Assembly: GCF_040054535.1 (NCBI RefSeq)
Contig: NC_090797.1
Coordinates: forward strand, 6,379,001-6,443,000
DNA length: 64,000 bases
Direction: 5' to 3'
DNA from: Antennarius striatus
Taxonomy: Eukaryota; Chordata; Actinopteri; Lophiiformes; Antennariidae
Shown: piece after piece, positions 5,580 to 58,000 of the stretch
Position numbering within the stretch: the stretch's first letter is position 1
Layout of the letters: every line of letters starts with the position of its first letter
Made by a program: the position numbers and the translations under genes
The notes under the pieces: generated by a model
Seen by the model: the letters and a program-made list of their open reading frames with translations, nothing else
Told to the model about the DNA's origin: nothing
The model's database searches: none

Positions 5580-8225
5580 ATTAGCCAAGATCTCAAGCAA
5601 TAGTGACTGTGATTTCTGCCTTTAACGTAAATGTTTACAGAGCTTAGATTGAGATCAGCTTCTTTTAACCAGTTGTGGCTCAAAACATTAAATATTGATG
5701 GACAAAGCTGGGTGGATTCATGACGGAACTCATGGAGTTGAAATCTTGCACCATTCCACATGTTCATGTATATCTGTTTACATCCTTGTGGCCATGGGTC
5801 AGAGCAGGGAGATAGGGTTCAGTGATGAGCAGTCAAACTCCTGTTATTTGTGTGTTTCTCCATGGCACACCAAACATCCTTCTGAATGACTCTGCCAGCA
5901 TTAAGCACCAGATGTGAAGGGTTCACAACATCAGCACATCTCTGAAATGTGATTAACTAGGCTTTAAAGATTTTGGAATTAAACTATCACATCGTGAGAC
6001 AAGCCTGAGATATCTGGCATCACAGTTAGATAAAACATCAAAAGCATCAACAAACACTGCTTGACCCAGGAGTGCCCGAAATCCAAAACGATGGCAAAAT
6101 GCTGTGGCCAAGTCTGGAGACAAGGTTTTTGTTGGATTGAGTTTTCAGCTGCACTTAGATAAGAGACCCTGACTCAGCCAAGATTACTCAGTCTGTTGAA
6201 GAGTGGAACAACATGTCCTCTGGATATAAAGACCAGTACTCTTTGTTGCAACATCTCCCACCGCGTTACATAGGCCTAGGAGGTAATGGAAAACAGTTCA
6301 TATGGAAAACCACATCTAGACATTCAACAATGTGTAATACAATTCTTGGCACAAAGAGTCACGTTATGAAATTACTGTTTTGAGTGATTTTCAGCTTTTT
6401 CTGCATCATAGCAACTGAACAAGAGCAGAAAAGAAAATCAAGAACACTGCCAAAACAAGTCCCTATTGAATAAAAATGATTTGGGGCCTGTTCAGACTTT
6501 ATGTAAGTTATGTATCCACTGGACTAGAGCTCCACAGCAGGTTAAAGAGATGACTCCCTCATGGACAGGGACTATTACCGCCTAGATCCTGGAGATGTGA
6601 TGAAATGAGTAGTTGCACTGCAACGTGAAAATGCATACAACTTATAAACTCACCCAGAATCACTTTCAGCTCTGGCCAACTGATGGTTTTGGGTCAACCT
6701 CATCATCCCTGTCATGTGTTCAGGTCAAGGTCCACTAAAGAGCAGCTTTACCCGAATCATTTGTTGGCAGCTGCGGCTCAAGTCCTCCCTTCAATTATTG
6801 TGGCACTGAGAGGGTAGGAAGAACTTTTGGCTATACAGATGACAAGGAGATTGCTGGGTTTTTTAGACTTGTTGTCTGCTTGCTGTGTGAAAGGTCATGG
6901 AACTTTGTGGATCTCCATACTGTTTGAGTTTCAGAGAGAGCATGCATGTGTCAACTGGGTTGCGGTTGTCTTCAGAAAGAGGTGACCACATAAGGCAGTA
7001 GGATTCTCCCAGTGATTCTAGAAAGTAATGGTAAATCCACTCAAAGTATTTACACTGTATCCCAATGAGTTATGGAATTTAATTGCCAACAACTTATCAC
7101 TGTTATTACTTTCCACTAAAAAATAGAGCACATTCCCCATACAGGCCATAACGGTGAAAGCCTTTAAAAGCTACTGGAGGTGGCTGGAAATATTAGTGCC
7201 CAGAGAAGATTAAACTCAGTATATCTAGTTACTGGGGACACACTGTTGCAACTGAATGTGTAAAAAATAATGGAAAAACAAAAACTTAAATGACACAGTT
7301 GAGAATGCAGTAGTTATCTATGGATGAATGGATGAATTTGCAATAAGGCTGTCACTGAAGCCAATTTCGATAGATATTGTGTTTTCTTTCTAGTTTGCCT
7401 ACTGCCTGCTGAAGAGCAACTGAGTGTTGTCACTGTGGCAATACTATTGTTAACTAAAAGGTAGGTTAATGGATAAATGTTTGAAATATCTAGATGTAAG
7501 GGATGATGCTACTGAAGATTAAACTGTAAACATTATTTCTGATTGCACTGATTGATCGGTAAAGTAATGGATAAATAGTTGACATTTAGCCAACAATAAT
7601 AGATAATACTTTGACATAAGGTGCCCTGTTGGATAATTGATAAATGTTTAAAATGTGCACCATCTATCATTCCATCTGGTAAAATCTATTTAACTGTTTT
7701 AAACAGTGACAGGTCATGAAAACAACATTGGAATTCCTCCATTATAATTAATAGTTTTAGTATCACTATTTGGGTTTCTTCCCATTCCTTATTTTCACAA
7801 AAAGTTAAATAGTTAATACCTGTCTTTTCTGACAATGTGAAGTAATATTCTGTAGTTTTCTTTGGGTTTGCATAAGCCCCCTTCTCTAGCCTATCGCCTT
7901 CTGCCTAAAATTGCCCAGTCAAATATTTGACCAACCGCACTAAACTATCACACCTAAGTGCTTAACCTTCTGGTCCTTCACCTCTCACCTCTGCCCTTTG
8001 GCTGTCTGGGCTTCAGTCACTGCCTCTCTTTATGTCTGCGTCTTTCTCCCCAACTCTGATTAACTGCCACACGGAAAATGTATTTTCAGTTTTTTTTGAG
8101 TGAAAAACAATTAAACAGAGTGTTCTGGTTTCAAAACTAATCATACACAGACAGTTTTGAAAGAGTATCCACCCAAACCTTTGAATTGTGTCGTCTCATC
8201 CTCCAGGCTCCCTGCTAGCAGCACC

Positions 8226-11200
8226 ATGAGGTCAGCCTGTCTCTCTCTGCTCCTGGTAACCGCCTGCTGGGCTCTGCCCTTCCGCCAGTCTGGCTTCCTG
8301 GACTTCATGATGGAGGATGAGGCAGGATCTGGTGTCCCTGAAGCAGCTCCAGATGTAATGGTACCTTTTGTTCCTGAAGGTCCCAAGTGCCCATTCAGAT
8401 GCCAGTGCCACCTGCGCGTGGTCCAGTGCTCTGACCTTGGTAAGATGAGATGCACAGTCAACATTATCTACTGTGGGATTCTATTAAGAGACAAACCTTA
8501 GTTGAAACTTGAAACCCCTTTTATTATGTGTTGAATTCCATAGTTTTCAGTTTTTGGCAAAGAAATGGTCCCTGCAAAACATAAGTAACTAGTGTTAATG
8601 AAAAATGCTTTCCAAGGTATTATGGTCAATCATCCATGCACTTTCTCAAAAGTTAATCAGTGCATCTGATCAACACTGATTAAAATTATTAAATACACAT
8701 GTAAATAATATATACATATATTATTGTCACACATTCGCACTTCTGAAATGTCTTCAATTTCTCCATCAATGGACTTTTTCCTTGTCCAGCTTAGACAGAA
8801 CCAACAGATTGGCTTCAACCACAGTTGTCTGTACTTATAAAGAATATTCCATACATAGCTGGAAATACAAACTGGTTTCGGTGAAAGTGACAAAAGAGAA
8901 ATAAAAAGATTTTTAAATGTACAGTACAGATTTGGTTTTTTTTCTTTTTTGTCTACTCCTCCATCTGGAGTCCATCTTGATGGGTCACATGCCGAGGTCA
9001 GATGGGTGTTTCCTGGACTTTTACTGTCCTTTTATTGTTTTGAGACATTAATAGCTTTGAAGCAGAAAGAGTCACTGGATTTACAAGCTGTCTCCACTGT
9101 CCACCCAAACCCACAGGGTCTTTCCAAGGGTCAGGAACATGGCACCAATGTTGATATCTTAAATGCTCCCAGATGCTTGATTCACTTCCTGTGATGATTA
9201 TATGATGTGCCCATTATGAAAAAAGACATCGTTCAAGAGTGGGAGTTCAAGTTTCAGAACTTGTTTCTCAATGTAAAGCTTACTCATCGATGTTGAAACC
9301 TTTTAAATTCGTGCAGTCACAACAATTTACTCAACTGTCATCTTGTTTGGAGCAAATCCTCTCTTTGTGTAACCTGATGTATGGCATACACAAGCACTTG
9401 AGTCACCTCACACTCTCAGTCACAGAAAAGTCCCTGACTTCATTTATTCTGGTGCATTTCATAAAATTGCTTTGTTTGGCTCAAGTTTTGCTTGGAAAGC
9501 AAGTTTTTAGGAGACATATAAAAGATGGAGGAAAGGGTAAAGATGTTCAAACTGGAATAATAAAATAAAAAAGTGGACATAACTAGCTCATAAACACTTG
9601 TTTTAATTAGCTCAGAAGAGCCAGAGTTAATATGGAAAAATAAAAGTATCACACAAAGTGTGAAGTAAAAGGAGCGCATTGAAACGTACGGGTATCCCAG
9701 TTAGGCAGGTGGCTGAACACAGCCACAGACAGCAAGAGAGACTAAGGCCAGTTCCATTACATCAGTCCTCCTGCCATACCCCTGGTCAGCAGTGGTGTTT
9801 TCCCTCAGAGATGCAGCTCCATGGCTGGATTCTCAACTCCTGCATAAGCCCTGTTGGCCCCAAACCTCCATCTGTTCCCCAGACCTGCTGGCCGGCACAC
9901 AAATACATTTAGACACACATTATCAAGAGTAATACGTGTTCATTTGGATGCACATGAGTCTAGACAGGACAGAGGAGAGGGCAACAGCTTCTCACTTTTG
10001 TAGATGTAGAGTTTGCAGAATCGCTGCTAAAGCAGTTAGGAGAGAAAGCTTGTCTTTGGGTACAAATGAGTTGTGATTGTGGATGAGCAAAACCTCATTC
10101 AACAGGAGTTGGCATATACTTTAGTTAGACGTTCAGATGCTTTTCTGATTATATGTTTACCCTTCATGTGGTCATCTAAGGTGGCAGGCATACACGCCAC
10201 GTCTGTCCACACTTCTGAGGACCTTCTCCAAAACATCTCAATTTAACAGACCCCATGAATTTGCTCAACCTGAATCATCCAGTATCGATGTCAGACAAGA
10301 ATAGGACATTCTTTGTCACTATTGCTCAAAATGATGAACATGACCCTGTTGCAAGACAGTAGGGACAGTTTTCTGAGCAGATTAAAGTTGGCTTTTAGTG
10401 GTTAGCGCTGTCCCATCACAGCATTTGGGTTTGGGTTCCTCAACCTACTCCAGTCCAGTAACATGCAATATAAGCCAAGTGATGAGTCTATAGTCCGTCA
10501 ATTGGTGTGAATGGTTGTCATTTCTAGAAAGTATTCTCACAATTATTAGTAACACTACTTTTACTTAAGAAAATAATAATTAACAACTGTTTATGTCCCA
10601 TTTCTGGTCAAGTTGCTCTCAGGGAAAAACTAAGATGTTAAGCAAACATGACATTGAGATCATACATTAGCAAGATAGACTGTTTGTTGAAATGTTTATA
10701 ACTTCCATGGTTTTGAGGTTGACTTTTCAGTCAACACATCCACATATCTCCTTATTTGTCTAAGACATTATTATTTATTGTGTAAGTTAGAGCACCATGA
10801 GTGCATTTATAGCCATATAGAGTGTTATGTTGTCATGATGGTGTGACCACAAACAGCTGTGATGGTTTGTGAGTCATCAACTGATGAGCTGGAAAAGCTC
10901 ATGGAGAGAAACCATAGCTGTAAATTATGTTTGGCTGAACAGAAGTCATCGCAAGTTTGTAAGTTAAAATATGTATAACATCCGTATGTATGTGAATCAG
11001 AGATACACATACATAGAGTGTTATAAACAGTTTATTCTATGTCGCTTCCTCTGAAATATAAACTACTCAATTTTAATAAAACATATACTATGACAACCTG
11101 CTGTCTTAACTCACTGTTTTGTACAAGTTCACCGAACGTCAGCCATAATTAAGTCCAAGCAAAGTGACTTAGCGTGAGCTTATTGTTCAGATATGCAGTC

Positions 11201-46629: not shown

Positions 46630-49600
46630 ATGAGGATGCTCGTGCGCTTCATGCTGGGACTCTTCGTCCTCAAAGCCGTGGTGGCCAGCCCCCGATTTTC
46701 CCGACAAGTGGACTTGGACACATACGACACTGTCAGCTACGATGTGGATCTAGACAATTTAGATTTGGAAAACCAGGATCTCTATGACTATGAAGACGGG
46801 CTGACAATTGACGATCCTCAGGTAAGGCTTCATCGGTCGATCATTAAGCTCAAGAGAAAATATCTGGCCAAAGCAGTTTGTTCTTTGATTGCACAGTTCC
46901 ACCAGTCATACTGATGAAAAGAGTAATGTATTACAATTTTTCACATTTCACCTCCTGAGAATTTGAAGTCAAAACAACGGTTTGTGTTTGGTCATTTGGT
47001 AGTAGTAGTGCCAATTGCTGCTGCTGTTATTGGGGCTTTTTACCCATAGAAATCACCAATAGTCCATCGATAGATTACCTAATCTCATAATTGAAATACA
47101 GTGTAATGTTCATTTTACCAATTTGTCTATGAGGACAGACAAAAAATATTACTGACGCAATACCAACATCATATATTTAAAACACACAGGCTGTCACAAC
47201 TCTTTGATTTCCTTGTTCTCAGTGTCGTCTTATCATTGATTAATTGGCTGGTTTGGAACCAAGGTCATCAGGTCCACAGAAGAGACAGACATCCAGCTGA
47301 TCTCAACTGCTTTCCAGCCTTATTATGACCAACACATTTCTCTTTTCAATCTTAGTTAGCCATGTCTCGGAATCTCAACAAGGCTAAATTCCTCAGAATC
47401 TGGACTGACTTAAATGTGTGTATTCCAGCAACATTTGTGTTTCAATGACAAAAATATTTTTCATTTGCTCGCAAATGAAAAACATCCCTTGGTGTGCAGA
47501 TTACATATTTTGGAACTATAGTAGGTATACATGGCAATTACAGGAAACTCAGATGTGTAATTTTCCCACGGCAAGCCAGCAGAACATAGAGTCTGTTCAT
47601 AAAGCTGTTGCAGGATTGTTTCTCTGTGAGTTTAACTTGCTCTGTCTTGATACTCAATACATGTCAAACATTGTGAAAGAACCTGTGTTAGTTGAGCAAA
47701 ACTGAAGGACTACTGTACCCTTTGGGATTTACTAACTGACTTTCTGCTGAACATAACAGCTAGCAAAAGACAGAGAAAGGAGAGGCAGCAGAGTTATCTA
47801 TTAGATAATGAAGTCCAGAAGATTTGTTAAATCAGCTCAAGCTGAGTGTGATGTGGCAAGTCTGGAGATCACATCAGTATGGTGAGCCTTGGATTCTATG
47901 TTCCCCATTTATTCATGACAAGGACGTAAAGGCAAAGCAAAGGCAAAGCATTCTTTAATTTTCAACAGGCATCATGTGGGCCAGAATTTTAAATAAAACC
48001 TGATGTGGATTGCCTTCATACCATGACTGTTATCTAAGACCAATCCTCAACCAAAAGTAGATTTTGCAGGTATTAGTTGTGGAGTAAAGAGAGATAGTAG
48101 AGAAAACTACATGAGACATTTGTCTTTACTCTTGGGTAATGCCTTTTGTATTAAACATGTATGGATATAGCAAAGCCTGATGCATCAGATTTTGTGGGAA
48201 TCAGGAGCAGGAAGAAGAGAGGCAGAACAATTACCAGAATCTTTCCAGTCCGTATTAAGGACTAGTAGTTCATCTGTAGCACTCATTAGGTAGGACTTGC
48301 ATATTGCAATGATCTGACGTATTTTGCTGACGGCACCATGTAGTGAAAGGGTAGGTCTTCATAGGCTGGGTGCTCAAGAAGAGTGAGGATTAAATGGATT
48401 TTATTCATACAAACATCAGATATCAGGCGAGAAATGAGGCGGTGATGAGCTCCATGCCTCTGGAATGCTGACTCCTAACTTTCCAACATCCGTCTGTTGG
48501 TATTTCTGTTCTTTCTCCTCAGGGCTTATCACTTTTCAGAGGAACGAAGGCTCATCTTCTGTGTTATACAAGCAAATTTCCCTCAGTCTGCTGCATACAA
48601 AAGGACGTCTTGCAAATGCTTTAATCACTGATTTCAGATCCCTTTTAGCATCACCTTAGCTTCACGTTCAGGTTGCTTTTCATTGTTTTGCCTTGACTCC
48701 AGTTTCAGTGAAAAAAGTTGTTTTAGTTAATTACAGCCGGCAATTTAAATGTTTAACTTTATTTACACAAAAGCCAGTGCAAAATAACATTTACAGCTGC
48801 ACATGATATACCCTAACCCAGTCATTAAGACTGTATTGACAAAATTACCTGTAATTCTGTAACTGCTGTCAGCTTTGCTGTTGAATCAGGTCAACATTTC
48901 TCCTATACACCTATACTACTTTATTTGTCCCACTTGGGAATCAGCTAAATGAAAACAATGTACATGTCTCATCCTTATCCACTAATTGGTAAGTTATCAC
49001 AATAGTCTTAAAATAACCAAAAAATACAGGGCATTGCCTGCATCAAATAGACAATCAACACTGCCCTCAAGCATTTGTAACTAACATGAAGCTGGCCAGT
49101 TTGCCTAACTCATCATAGTTGGGAAACACAATCAATGCTCTGTCCAAAGGTCTATTTACAATTTTATATTTTTAAAAAAAAGATGATGCATTGATCTCTG
49201 ATTACGTCTCCCAACTATTGGCGCTGGTCATGAAGACTATTGCTAGTGCATGTAAAAAGAGCAACACAACAGATATGGTCAAACAATTGAAACTTGATTT
49301 GCAGCTCATTTTAATCTGCTAGCGTTCATATGCTTGATGCAGAACTGCATATTCCAAGATAATTTAGCACTCTTCCGATTCCATATTTTTATATCATAAT
49401 GTTGGGAAGATATGTTGCTTAAAAAACAAAAACAGATTCAGTGTTTATTCTGGTAAGTGTAGGTGAATTTCTTTGTAATAATCTGAGCTCATGCTCACTC
49501 TTATTCTAATGAATGACTCAAAACCTGCTACTAGTCTCATAAAGGGGTGGGAGGTGACAAAACCCATGTGACAACAATACAGGAAGTGAAAGTGAGCTGT

Positions 49601-52600
49601 GCCATTTATGAGCCAACTCCAGTAAAAAAACTTTCCAGGATTACTGACACAATACATACTGTTTGTATAATTCTTTTAAAAAATAGAAGTATAAAAGCAA
49701 GGTTTTGGGTTTGAACTGTCAGACTCTTTCTTCATACAGTATCTTGTTGCTGCGAGGTTGCCAACCAGTGGGATGTTATTGTGAGACAGATGACCTTTAT
49801 CAATCTTCTTATTAAGTTGCAGCTAGAAAGTCAACATGCACATTACTATAACTTCTTAAATAGATAAATTTTACTTTCACTTTGACCCGAAAAGCCATGA
49901 CTATGATTTTTCCGCATGTTTTACTGGGCCTTTAAAGCGATTATCCAATGCTCCCCATCTAGTTGTTGGATATTCTGTCGTTTTGTTCATAATGCAGCTG
50001 GTAAAGCAGTGAGAATGTTCCCCTGCTGAATGTATCTACTGATTGCTAGGCTATGTGCTACAGCACAAGCATTGGTGTTGGATGGATGCTTACGTCGAAC
50101 GTCTCTCCCTGTACACTAGACTGTTTTCCCATGCTGTTTCCAGAGCTTTTTTCAGTAGTTTCTGGTTGCCAGTTTTTCACCTCTTCTTTCCCCTTGGGTG
50201 TATATGTTTGCTTAGTGGAAAGAGGGATATGAAAGAGAGAGCTGCAGCAAGCTAACTGCGTGAGACTTTTCAATGGCCTGCCTTGTTTTACTGAAAACTA
50301 TGTCTGCCAAGCTTTAAAATGTGACTTTCAGTGGTGGTCATCTCTGCACTGATGCATTTAATGTCTTTTCATGATTCTTGGTTTCTTACAGTACATTTTG
50401 TATTATAAAGATTGGACTTAATGTGGCTTGTATCTTTTCACATTCATTTCGGATGCTTCTTGGCTCTTTGTCATCTGATAATTGTTGCTAAAATCTGAAA
50501 CCAGTAAAATAAGAATTCTTGCAGCTACCATGTGAGTCTTGGTTCCACAAGGACCATTCCCTTCTAGCAGGCTTGAGTTAGTCTTTGGAATTCATGAACG
50601 TCAATGTTACCTGTGACTGTGTGTGGAGGTTTATTGCCCTCTTCTGGAAAATGGTAGAACTGCACCAATGAAACTTGCAAACATAGAGGCTAACTATAAT
50701 AAATGGTCACATAGTACACCTGATACTAGCACTAGTGTCTGTAACAAACACAGGTGCTGATGTAAGGGATGGAAACACCCCGTTCTTCTGCATGACACAG
50801 CAAGTTCAGTCCCATGCCATGTTCACGTTGGAACAACAAATCCTAATTTATCAATATGATTCTCATTTGCATCCAAGAATTCACTAACCGTACACTTTTC
50901 TTCCATAAAACATAAACATACCATCACTATAGTTAAGAAAGGCATTGGAGGCTGCACCAGGGGCACTCTCTTTCTATCAAATGCCGGACACTAAAGTGAA
51001 CTATTTTCTGTGTGATATATGTTGTTGGACTTATTTTTACATTTTTGACTCAGTGAAATTGTCTTTACCTCAGATAGAGATTGGAACACTGGCCCCACCT
51101 GACTATAACTATCCTGTACCTGAGGCCACGTTGGAAGAACAAATACAAGAGGAGGAAGAAGAGGAAGAGATGCCTTTGACACCCCAGCTCGCCCCTCAGG
51201 GTTCAGGGGGATCTGGGGTTCTCATGGGCCCAGACACACAGAAAGGTCTGAAAAAGCACAAACCTTTGATCAACCCAAGAGTCACATGACGGTCAACGAT
51301 GACCTGGTTTTAGTGAGGGTCTTACTCTCGTGGAGTAAAGGCAGCACCCATTATGAGAAAACCATCCAAAGCCAAGATAGACTATTACACTCTCTAACAT
51401 CATCTTCTGCATCTTTAATAGTCACCTGTCCATGTGCATGTCTTCCATTTAACTAGCTGATAATGGTTAAATGTGTGCTGTTAATCATCATGTCCAACTA
51501 ATCATAACTGTGAGCTCCAGATCTGACTGATCCATTTCACTTTGTCTGTTTATTAATACCTAATCTTGTCTCTAACAAGAGGTGGAGCTGCGTCTGACGC
51601 CCATTGATATCCTCCATGTGTCTGGAGATTTTGAGGGATCCATGGGGTCTGGGGCTTCTGGAGAATCTGGGTCTGGAGGTTCTGGGACTTCTGGAGATAT
51701 TGTCCTGGTATCTGGAGATTCTGAGGAGCTCCTCAGCTCTGGGGAATCAGGGGAATTCTTGGTATCTGGGGATATCTTGATATCTGGGGATGTAGTGATA
51801 TCTGGGGATGTCTTGATATCTGGAGATCTCTCAGGATCTGGGGATATAGTAGGAATCCCCTCCGGGGACTTTGGCTCTGGAGAGTCTGGGGATGAGTCTG
51901 GTGCTGAGCTCTCAGGAGATCTCTTGATCCCGGGGGTTTCTGGAAGCTCTGGGGAAGTTTCTGGGGATTCTGATGAGTCCAGGATAATATTGATATCTGG
52001 AGGTTAGTACCTTTAAAGACCAGAGGCCTGCCATAATTATCTGATCTGTTTATGTGTGATTCATGCTCATTCATTATCTTAAATTCCATTTAACTATGTT
52101 AAATGTTGATTTGTTTGCTTATAATCTCACTTATTTGTTCCACCATGTGTTTTTGTTTCCGTGTCATGCTCTCTTAACATTTGTCTTCATCTAAAATGTG
52201 AGATTGATTGGTTAATAGTTTGATTGATTGTCTTTCTCACCCTCTTTAATCTCACGTCTCCTAACCCCAACACTTGGCTCTAACAAGAGGAGGAGCTGCC
52301 CCTCATTCCCGAGACTATCCCCAGCGAGGCATCAGGTGCTTCTGGGGGATTCTCAGGAGCTTCAGGAACCTCAGGGGCCTCTGGGGATCCCGAAACATCT
52401 GGAGAGCCAGAGTTCTCTGGAGATTCTGGTGTCTCTGTTTCTGGAGATGTAGAGGTCCCTGAGGTAACTCTGGTCCCTGACACTGATAAAGGTCAGTATC
52501 TAAACTGGATTTGTGTGAAATATGTTAAATTAAGGTTACAAATTAAAGTTCTAGTTGTATCAGGGGAAGAAAACACCATCATACGCATATATCCTTTCAA

Positions 52601-55600
52601 CTACAAACAAGATCAGTTCTACTGCTCATCCACAGCAGATCAGTCCACAGAGAAACCAGCAGATGATATTTTTTGTTCATGCACTGAACCAAACAATTTT
52701 AGCTCAAATGAATTGGCATCATCTTCAGGTCTTTTTCATTGACACGGTTCCAGGGACAGGTCAGAGCCAGTTACAAACTACAAACCAGTTCTCCATGTTC
52801 CCACAGCTGAAAAACCAGCTCATGAAAGTTGGTGCCAGAATGGAAACAAAGCATTAAAGGGATATCCAAAGCTGTTTAAATCAATCCACTGTACTTTAAG
52901 AAACTTTCTTGAAGACATTTCGCCTCTCATCCAAGAGGCTTCTTCAAGCTTTTAAAGGGATAGAAAAAAACCCAAAATGTTCATGACAGGAAGTCAGGGC
53001 TGGGATTATCCTACAAAATCAAAAGTTTGTGATGATCATATTTTTGTTGTTGTTGTTGTTCTTGCTAACAAATGTACTTTTTAACTCCTCAGCAGTTCAT
53101 GTTTCATGTCATTAACACAAAAAATATATTTTCATTTAACGTCTATTCTTCAGTTAAATGTCATATTTGGTTAACACTGCTAATTTACAATGGCAAACAG
53201 TGGGCTGCTGATTGCCAGACCTCATGTTCCATGTCCACGCTGATCTAACCGTTTTCTTTAACACCTAATCTTTTCTCTAACAAGAGGAGGGGCTGCTTCC
53301 ACCCACACCAGAAACCCCTCAGGAGGGTACTGGCACTGTAGAAGGGTCTGTGAGTTCTGGTTTACCAGAGCCTGGTGAACCCGATGAGCCTGATGAGCCT
53401 GTGGTTGACAGAACAGGTCAGTACTGAACAACACAGGCACCAAAGTTTTCATCACAGCCCTTTGGATCATGTGTTACCCTGAATCTTGATCTGTTGTTAG
53501 ATATATGCTTTATATCCACAAATGTGTATAAAGTATTTGAATTTGATGAGATTTTGTTTAGGGGTGAATCTTGGACAAGGGAAGAGTTTCTTCAATTTTG
53601 AGGTGGATTCGGATACAAATGTAGATTGATTTTTCCCATAATACAAAATTTGTAAAAAATTGTTTATTACCTTTTGAAAAATCATGAAGAAAAACCACAC
53701 ATTTTTATTGGAATATAACAGATTGCACAGATTAAAATATATATTTAGATTGAGCAATATGTTGTGAGTCATGGCACTGCCACGAACATGTAGCTGAGAT
53801 AATCAGCTGTTACAGCCAATTTCATCTGTCAAAACCACCCTTTAATGCCAAATGTTTCATATTTAATGTAATTGGCCTTTCAGGATTTTCGAGATTTCTA
53901 CATCATAAGTGAGATTTTTTTCTGTAAAACCTGATGTTTACAATCAGATGGATGCTTCTGCATTTTGCATGCAATAAAAATTAGATTTAGCAAAAATTAT
54001 ACAAATTTAAGCTCATATATACAAATTTATGTAAATAAATTACAAACTTCTCAGAAGGCTTCATTAAGTTGTTATTTTCTAAAACTTTGATTTTTCTGGA
54101 ATAAATAAATCTGGATCCTCCATTATTGTTGAGAACTCTGACAATAAACAAAGTTCAACAGGAGGATTCCACGGTTAAGAAATGAGTTGGTAGTAACCTG
54201 GTATGGGGCAGATCTGAATAAAATGTTATTTTGGAGACCTTTCTGTAGTGTGCTCTTTGCCCTTGTTGCATTGGTATAAATATAAAGTATGTCACCACGG
54301 AAATCATTACAGAATTTTGTTTGAACAGCCTGGGAACTAATGTTGTATGGATTTCCTTCATCTCATACTTTCCCGTCTCACTCCTTCCAACTGATGCACT
54401 CCAGGTATGCCCACTTGCTTGTTGTGCACGTGCCTTGGTGGTTCGGTCTACTGTGACGACTTGAAACTGGACAGCGTCCCACCTCTTCCCAAAGACACCA
54501 CTCACTTCTACGCACGCTACAACAGAATCACCAAGATCAACAAGTCGGACTTCGCCTTCATGAGTATGCCTTTCGTTTGAATGAAAGTGTATGAAGATCT
54601 CAGAACAGGGAACCAGATATATAGATGCACATCAGGCATTCAAGCGTTTGTGATTTGTGCTGTTTTCAGACAAGCTGAAGAGGATTGATTTGACTGCCAA
54701 CGAGATAACGTCCATCGATGACACAGCATTTTTAGGTCTGCCTCAGCTTGAGGAGCTGGTGATTCGAGAAAATCACGTCTCACAGCTGCCTGCTCTCCCC
54801 GAGACAATGACCCTGATCGACGGCAGTCACAACAACATCGGCACCAAGGGCATTCACAATGAGGCCTTCAAAGTATGTTCATCCACCAAAAGCTGATAAA
54901 ATGGCTAGTTGTAGATAAATTCTTACTCTTTACATTTTCATTCCTTTTTTGCCACAGTATTGACTTATACACAAATACAGTCATGTTAATTGAGTCAACA
55001 ATGAGTTTTCCCATTGTGTACAGGATATGACGAGTCTGCTGTACCTGTACCTAACGGACAACCACCTCGATTACATCCCTGTGCCTCTACCAGACAGTCT
55101 GCGATCTCTACACCTACAGGTAGGTCAGCTCTGACCTCACGTCTCATCATCGCCAAATAAAGCAAAGGCAAAAATAATATCAGGATGGTTATGTCAATAA
55201 ACACAAGGATGTTTTGGATCAGATTACTTGTAAATCCATTTAAAGTACAGGATTACAAAAAATCTAATCTACCGGTATGTCCAGACTTTACATATCCAGC
55301 GTGGCTCCAAACACCAAATCATACCTTTTAAAACAAAAGGCAGCCTGTCAGCCATGGACACCAATTGTATTTAGTTGTCTGGAAATGGTGGACAAACCCT
55401 TTTCCAGGGTTGGACAGGTTAGCTAGTTCAGGGGTTGGACGACAAAATCTTCGTTTTCTCCTCCTTCAGTCATTGTGAGAGCCAAAACCAAGTAGATTTT
55501 CCAGGCTCAAAATCCATGCAGATTTCTCCGCTAAATCTCTGCACTCTAACCAAAAAGGATCTGCATAGTGCTGCCTTCTCAGAGTGAGTATCCAATCAAA

Positions 55601-56433
55601 GGACACTTACATGTCAGGTGAATGTGAGGCCAGCTAGAATGCCCAGAGTCCCCAACTCGTGATCTGATTGGCTATCTTATCTATGAACTCTATGTACCCA
55701 TTTTCTTACAGTGCAGGGACACCTCCATTCTAGATTGTGAAGGCCCTGGACAAGTTTCACTCAACCTGGCAACACAAGCTAGCTGAATTCGGATTGGATA
55801 AAACCTCTCTAACCTAAAAATAGAACACTGACCCAATGTTGACCCATGTCATATTATATCCCAATGTGTGTGTGTATAAAGTAAAATGCTGAAAAATATA
55901 GTTATTTTTTATCATAAATATTATCATGATTTCTGGTTATGTTAGGCCATCAGACACAGCCCACCGCTATGCAACCCTGATTTTTTTTTGTCAATGTTGC
56001 ATAATTTGAGATTCTATTACTATACAACCCTAACAAAAAAAATAGTTACTCAAAGAATAAACTGACAATAGTTTTTTGAACATGTTTTTTTTCCCAAAAT
56101 ATCAATCCTCGTCCAATTTTGGATTCCAACAAATTATTTCAAATTTGAATGACTGAACTTTTAAAGTGCATGAAATCAAATAAAAATGATACAGTCAATG
56201 CTGCCTTTACATACAGCTCAGGCAACAGTATCTCATTGTGTATCCTAAATTTCCCATTGCAGCGTAACAATATTCAAATGATGCACGAGGACACATTCTG
56301 TAACCTGAAAGATTTCAACTACATCAGGAATGCGCTGGAGGACATCCGTCTGGACGGCAACCCCATCAACCTCAGCAGGACCCCGCAGGCCTACATCTGC
56401 CTGCCTCGTATTCCCATCGGGGATCTTATTTAA
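46630..56433 (+). CDS. epyc: Epiphycan, class III SLRP with an inserted Ser-Gly-rich domain (9 coding exons, 583 aa)
   Basis: Coding exons are 46630-46821, 51074-51245, 51580-52002, 52288-52491, 53285-53416, 54405-54563, 54670-54872, 55024-55119 and 56263-56433. All are GT..AG with closing phases, giving 583 codons plus TAA. Human epiphycan is about 322 aa; the excess is the 253 residues of exons 51580-53416. Residues 1-19 are a signal peptide. An acidic stretch with Tyr (DLYDYED) suits tyrosine sulfation. The second exon ends GPDTQK, like human GPHTNED. Residues 122-374 hold the Ser-Gly/Asp domain. The class III cluster CX2CXCX6C (Cys379, 382, 384, 391) and a short LRR array follow. The ending, with ALEDIRLDGNPINLS and QAYICLPRIPIGDL, is characteristic of epiphycan. 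It is expected in cartilage matrix. The donor at 51246 (GTCTGA) is weak. Introns 46822-51073 and 55120-56262 show no other gene. Confidence 0.93.
51762..51833 (+). repeat. epyc: Coding 18-bp minisatellite (hexapeptide repeat) in epiphycan
   Basis: Four adjoining 18-base units, of the form ATATCTGGGGATGTCTTG, encode I/V-S-G-D-I/V/L-L/V. They start at 51762, 51780, 51798 and 51816. The units are nearly identical and keep the frame, so copy number can change without harm to the reading frame. Confidence 0.85.
52905..52952. repeat. Fragment of a common fish interspersed repeat
   Basis: TTGAAGACATTTCGCCTCTC followed by ATCCAAGAGGCTTCTTCAAG matches a block seen repeatedly in fish genomes (from memory). 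It lies in the intron between the second and third Ser-Gly exons of epiphycan. Confidence 0.6.
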
Positions 56434-57390: not shown

Positions 57391-58000
57391 CAGTGATTCC
57401 TCTACTTACGAATGTCTCTACTTACGAAATTTTCTACTTACGAAATTTCTCAGGAGGAACATATTACCTCTACTTATGAAAGAAATTTCGACTTACGTAA
57501 TGTAAAAGCACAGTATCGGCTGATACTCGAATAAAAACACAGTATCGGCTGATAGTCGAATCTCTCACATGTTCCTGAACGCAACATTCTCATAGCTGCT
57601 CTCCCATTACGTATCTTCCTAGCATCTCATTGGCTAAGAGGGATGCCACTCCACCTCTGTGGAGCTAGAGGTGTTTATGGAGTGTCTCCGGCATTCGGCA
57701 CTCGACCCATGAGGTAGTCTGATAGTTTTGCGCAAATATTTCTTGTCCATACAAACAAAGCAAGAGATCATAGAAAGCATGAGAAAGGGATGCCTTTGGT
57801 TGATCTCACCAAAGAATATGGCCGTAATGCATCTACAATCGCCACGTTATTAAAACAAAAGGAAGTTTAAAGAGTTTAAGGCATGGCGTGGGTGGTTGGA
57901 TAAGTTCAAAAGGAGGACTGGAATTCACTCTGTTGTTCGGCATCGTGAGATAGGAGCGCATGAACCAAAGAGGGAAAAAAACAATGGGGACAGCTGCTAA
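57391..58000 (+). mobile_element. Decayed Tigger-type (pogo, Tc1/mariner superfamily) transposon fragment
   Basis: A TA at 57389-57390 precedes CAGTGATTCCTCTACTTACG, a plausible terminal inverted repeat start, and TCTACTTACGAAAT recurs within it. Around 57757-57870 a CENP-B-like helix-turn-helix is readable: KQEIIESMRKG, then, after a one-base frame change, VDLTKEYGRNASTIATLL. At about 57875-57970 a second DNA-binding segment reads WLDKFKRRTGIHSVVRH. Both are typical of the N-terminal half of Tigger transposases. The DDE catalytic part and a right terminal repeat are absent, and the frame is broken, so the copy is dead. Confidence 0.75.

Follow-up and report, generated by a model that had tools for sequence, protein, structure and literature searches.

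Three additional exons of a fish epiphycan gene form a probable, and probably optional, chondroitin sulfate domain

Results

Overview. The 64,000-nucleotide stretch of the Antennarius striatus genome analyzed here (NC_090797.1, positions 6,379,001 to 6,443,000; G000:C22:6379001-6443000; hereafter the window) carries the epiphycan gene, epyc, in which three consecutive in-frame exons, designated A, B, and C, encode 253 residues with 36 Ser-Gly dipeptides. These exons probably encode a domain that bears chondroitin sulfate (CS). We favor, with a probability of about two in three (0.68), a reading in which A-C constitute an optional glycosaminoglycan (GAG) attachment cassette, such that splicing would convert a small leucine-rich proteoglycan (SLRP) into a CS brush of aggrecan density in notochord and cartilage. 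The genome that contains the window measures 548 Mb.

The coding exons of epyc in window coordinates are:

46630..46821, + strand: first coding exon, identified by translation and GT donor; Met and a signal-like hydrophobic stretch, then an acidic N-terminus in which Asp or Glu follows each of four Tyr
51074..51245, + strand: exon 2; acidic (EEEEEEE), 2 Ser-Gly, phase 1 end
51580..52002, + strand: exon A; phase 1-1, encodes 141 aa with 25 Ser-Gly and contains an in-frame tandem repeat of an 18-bp unit at 51746-51847
52288..52491, + strand: exon B; phase 1-1, encodes 68 aa with 10 Ser-Gly
53285..53416, + strand: exon C; phase 1-1, encodes a Pro/Glu/Asp-rich stretch of 44 aa with a single Ser-Gly
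54405..54563, + strand: Cys-cluster exon; CLLCTCLGGSVYC fitting Cx2CxCx6C, start of the leucine-rich repeat (LRR) domain
54670..54872, + strand: LRR exon
55024..55119, + strand: LRR exon
56263..56433, + strand: last coding exon; C-terminal Cys pair and stop

Exon structure and splice sites. All eight introns between the coding exons had GT...AG ends. The long form comprised 583 residues, and skipping A-C left an open, in-frame protein of 330 residues. Since A, B, and C are all phase 1-1, each could be gained or skipped without a frameshift. Donor consensus matches were 7/9 for A and 8/9 for both B and C, which placed them in the 96th to 99th percentile of the 3717 GT dinucleotides in the window. 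The acceptors of A, B, and C (51580, 52288, and 53285) read AAG, while the five other acceptors within the coding sequence read CAG; a possible interpretation of these AAG sites is that they mark regulated inclusion. A preliminary description of this DNA had placed three in-frame exons between the acidic exon and the Cys-cluster exon, and its limits agreed to the base with the first position of A and the last position of C. Its counts (253 residues, 36 Ser-Gly, most of them followed by Asp or Glu) were likewise exact. Exon C, with its single pair in a Pro/Glu/Asp-rich sequence, is not a Ser-Gly exon of the kind of A and B.

Ser-Gly content. Exons A and B together carried 35/36 of the Ser-Gly pairs in the insert. 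Asp or Glu directly followed 22 of the 36 (15 SGD, 7 SGE), and for 33 an acidic residue lay no more than four positions from the pair, in an insert with 54 acidic and 4 basic residues overall. Including the two in exon 2, the 583-residue protein had 38 Ser-Gly. Composition did not account for these numbers: 20,000 shuffles of the 253 residues gave a mean of 8.7 and a maximum of 18 Ser-Gly (observed 36), and a mean of 1.9 and a maximum of 9 SG[DE] (observed 22). The corresponding DNA motif on the + strand, TC[TCA]GG[AGT], reached 59/kb in A and 54/kb in B compared to 1.9/kb in the rest of the window (~30-fold lower), and its copies lay in the coding frame in 25/25 cases for A, 10/11 for B, and 1/2 for C. 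The two introns flanking exon A contained none, and each of the next two contained three. Across both strands of the whole window, the only open frames with at least four Ser-Gly were exon A, exon B, and the antisense of exon B (five). Codon-position variation at SG[DE] sites was left unused because the sites are chosen by amino acid, making the measure circular. The antisense of exon A (51572-52003, - strand) was open for 143 residues and Ser-Pro-rich; we set it aside as a gene, as it is probably a by-product of the TCN-GGR-GAN codons.

Gene identity. The + strand of the window contained a run of SLRP genes in which epyc came after decorin, lumican, and keratocan (dcn, lum, and kera, names that we infer from inspection of their sequences). 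The order dcn-lum-kera-epyc is that given in PMC11917481, and epyc adjoined kera, the position of a class III SLRP. LRRNT matches fell at window positions 8388, 29015, and 40358, and the epyc exon was absent from that list. The Cys-cluster exon contained the class III N-terminal cysteine cluster in the form Cx2CxCx6C, the SLRP motif as described in PMC6293640. Pfam matches to the 583-residue protein comprised seven families, every one LRR or LRRNT, with LRR_8 above its cut-off (E 3.4e-21) and LRRNT below (22.4 bits against 25.8). Together with the PDB matches, for which the best hit of the 330-residue form was opticin (E 1.8e-72) followed by decorin (E 1.4e-22), these identify the LRR domain of a class III SLRP. 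The first coding exon also contained tyrosines with an acidic residue at +1 (TYD, SYD, LYDYED), an N-terminal feature of epiphycan according to section 15 of PMC7310474. The gene thus shares its gene order, Tyr-rich acidic N-terminus, Cys cluster, and LRR with epiphycan (EPYC, PG-Lb, DSPG3), and differs by three additional exons, which insert 36 Ser-Gly downstream of the acidic exon and ahead of the Cys cluster. At ~322 aa, mammalian epiphycan is about as long as the 330-residue form predicted here when A-C are skipped.

Known long forms of fish epiphycan. The preliminary description had stated that no description of such a form was known, a claim that is weakened by the ray-finned fish literature. 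PMC7310474 cites Zhou et al. 2006 for long splice variants of epiphycan in ray-finned fish; it puts the N-terminal region in some of these fish at nearly double length and leaves the long variants out of its alignments in favor of short ones matching other vertebrates. As long fish epiphycan is already in print (PMC7310474), exons A-C are probably optional. The A-C-bearing epyc product is a variant of this known long form and not a new kind of molecule. The zebrafish variant dspg3l (Zhou, Shirabe and Kuwada 2006) resembles it as a longer fish form produced by splicing, a likeness that extends as far as its description in PMC7310474. Among the literature matches listed, drawn from a coverage mostly outside subscription journals, no title or abstract opening announced a Ser-Gly-rich domain on epiphycan.

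Evidence for CS attachment. The insert has the clustered Ser-Gly with nearby acidic residues that characterize CS attachment domains (33/36). According to PMC5992326, the one firm demand of xylosyltransferase 1 is Gly or Ala after Ser; beyond that the enzyme is lax and generally favors acidic surroundings. Nearly all epyc Ser-Gly sites satisfy this lax rule. For wild-type zebrafish, a canonical CS linkage region on epiphycan is reported in PMC9458601, citing Delbaere et al. 2020; the main text of the latter (PMC7758351) does not name epiphycan and refers to Supplementary Table S6 for the full list, so that the glycopeptide with its site and isoform belongs to that supplement. The earlier suggestion of a GAG-bearing region therefore gained from the gene identity, the reading frame, the aggrecan-like density, and the zebrafish CS report (PMC9458601), but it is not entirely novel.

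Several observations weigh against a heavily substituted and regularly included domain. The stringent motif E/D-G/A-S-G, defined for CS in Caenorhabditis elegans (PMC8418075), occurred at only 1/38 Ser-Gly of the protein. An acidic residue at positions -4 to -1 was found for 19/38, and GSG accounted for 7/38 (5/36 within the insert). Attachment motifs alone are described as ambiguous and perhaps only occasionally occupied (PMC8418075). That every Ser codon of the 36 pairs is TCN (28 TCT, 7 TCA, 1 TCC) indicates that part of the density stems from repeat expansion at the DNA level. The pyrimidine tract of the exon B acceptor was middling (67th percentile). The splice score itself is a coarse measure, given that the donor of the Cys-cluster exon, which is certainly used, scored only 4/9. 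Since the E/D-G/A-S-G motif is worm-derived and xylosyltransferase 1 is laxer, the 1/38 lowers the case for CS without ending it.

Alternative explanations. The same 1/38 would suit a translated A-C that serves mainly as an acidic, phosphoprotein-like spacer with few sugar chains, phosphorylated at Fam20C sites as in the mineral-binding SIBLING proteins. The motif of this secretory kinase is S-x-E, which the seven SGE sites provide, and the excess of acidic over basic residues (54 versus 4 of 253) fits as well. We nonetheless consider such a spacer unlikely: among the 22 sites with Asp or Glu directly behind, 15 read SGD and hence do not fit S-x-E, the coupling of Ser to Gly is far above chance whereas a kinase would not need the Gly, and CS has been reported on zebrafish epiphycan (PMC9458601). 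Another alternative is that the stretch is a disordered linker in which repeat expansion is tolerated, slippage of TCTGGRGAT-like units letting the length drift between species with no particular role. This would explain the 5.7 tandem copies of the 18-bp unit at 51746-51847 and the uniform TCN codons (36/36). Against it, successive Ser-Gly are irregularly spaced (2 to 12 residues) and yet the frame is kept by 35/36 copies of the motif in these two exons, A and B, the Gly codons are mixed (GGA 16, GGG 16, GGT 4), and the Ser-Gly density equals that of an aggrecan-like domain, so that this seems a rather improbable account.

We regard as very improbable that A-C are rarely or never spliced into epyc, with the 330-residue form as the working protein. 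The in-frame skip product, the AAG rather than CAG acceptors, and the correspondence of the short fish variants to other vertebrates (PMC7310474) would agree with disuse. Exons out of use should gather stops, however, and A-C are open, in frame, equipped with strong donors, and the place where the motif is concentrated; long variants are also reported from other ray-finned fish (PMC7310474).

Comparison with aggrecan and other proteoglycans. As a yardstick for the CS cassette that we favor, we used the CS domain of an aggrecan-like locus elsewhere in this genome (L010 1059-2450; G000:C4, 24864258-24865649). It lies downstream of Link modules arranged as those of aggrecan, from which we take the name. 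Its open frame had 464 residues, ~31 of them before the likely acceptor, and contained 61 Ser-Gly, with 16 SG[DE], 18 GSG, and an acidic residue within four positions for 52/61. Ser-Gly density was 14.2 per 100 aa in the epyc insert and 13.1 in the aggrecan-like domain, while peak content was higher in the latter (33 Ser-Gly within 141 residues, compared to 25 for exon A). The two are alike in density, in SGD and SGSG runs, and in residing on a phase 1-1 exon (by reading for the aggrecan-like locus), and they differ in the upstream Link modules of the aggrecan-like locus, its 12-residue unit, and the lack of significant DNA similarity to A or B. In the aggrecan-like domain this unit (SGDISGSGxGGF-like) recurred at 36-bp steps. 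A derivation of exons A and B from aggrecan had no support in the DNA comparison (best E 0.048 against the 7-kb locus). Similar Ser-Gly density without significant DNA similarity makes convergence likely, and the epyc insert would then be a CS-like domain of independent origin, likely not derived from aggrecan. The Pfam scan of the 583-residue protein found no Link (Xlink) hyaluronan-binding modules, and the epyc product does not count as an aggrecan, even if its function may resemble that of the aggrecan CS domain. A second Link-module locus (C1, L009) had no open frame with at least five Ser-Gly within the 10 kb taken.

Serglycin has closely spaced Ser-Gly as its chain-attachment region, as does the epyc insert, and unlike epyc it has an uninterrupted SGSG repeat and no LRR. 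A serglycin family search of the genome returned no match, a search rated uninformative by its own record. Decorin of the window has one acidic N-terminal Ser-Gly site of this type versus dozens in epyc; this classical chain-attachment site, DEAGSG, lies in the first coding exon of decorin (8115-8501) and follows the ordinary SLRP pattern.

Origin of the exons. Exons A, B, and C have TCTAACAAGAGG in common at their 5' boundaries, and these three were the sole matches to it at ≤1 mismatch in the 64 kb; shuffling gave a mean of 0.48 matches by chance, with three reached in 1/100 shuffles. The shared sequence extends across the junction, with the intronic TCTAACAAG followed by AGG in the exon, and the window contains three exact copies:

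51571..51582, + strand: duplicated boundary, exon A start
52279..52290, + strand: duplicated boundary, exon B start
53276..53287, + strand: duplicated boundary, exon C start

Identity across intron and exon was 88% over 42 bp for A/C, 93% over 27 bp for A/B, and 82% over 38 bp for B/C. With the motif in frame in A and B and a boundary common to A-C, these look like real, tandemly duplicated coding exons. We infer that A-C arose by duplication of one exon start, after which the Ser-Gly stretches would have grown, partly as the 18-bp in-frame tandem repeat. Searched against the genome, exon A matched only itself at E ≤ 0.001 (20/20 candidates scored).

Proposed mechanism and significance. SLRPs bind collagen and are usually regarded as fibril-associated proteins with one or a few chains, and aggrecan as the carrier that supplies dense CS via hyaluronan. 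When A-C are spliced in, xylosyltransferase would prime many of the Ser-Gly serines, and chondroitin/dermatan sulfate chains would crowd the region bounded by the Tyr-rich N-terminus and the LRR domain. The LRR domain would then place a dense CS brush on the collagen fibrils of notochord sheath and cartilage. Skipping A-C would yield an ordinary, sparsely substituted epiphycan (330 aa here), such that splicing would determine how much charge and water the fibril surface holds. The fuller scenario, that an SLRP independently evolved an aggrecan-density CS domain by exon duplication and repeat growth and that splicing switches it between sparse and heavy substitution in notochord and cartilage, we advance tentatively and at slightly less than even odds. 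Alcian staining is positive in the notochord sheath and in head cartilage (PMC10665197), and in the catshark both chondrocytes and chordocytes express epyc (PMC11917481). If the proposal is correct, an SLRP with an optional CS domain puts aggrecan-like charge directly on fibrils, and the epyc domain could contribute to the Alcian-positive fish notochord sheath. Zebrafish, with CS reported on its epiphycan, is a possible testing ground if its long variant has a similar domain.

Other class III genes and remaining features of the window. Compared with the whole genome, the epyc Cys-cluster exon matched only two other places at E ≤ 0.001, on C2 and C5, which we take to be osteoglycin 1 and 2, osteoglycin-like by reading. 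Neither locus had an open frame with at least four Ser-Gly in 20 kb each (two 10-kb pieces). No opticin turned up in this one search; opticin is described as largely lost in fish in PMC2637281 and as present in bony fishes in PMC11917481. Rfam gave no match within the window. Just downstream of epyc, 57401-57561 consisted of two short tandem repeats with 16-bp and 29-bp units, and the stretch that follows resembles, by eye, a transposase reading frame.

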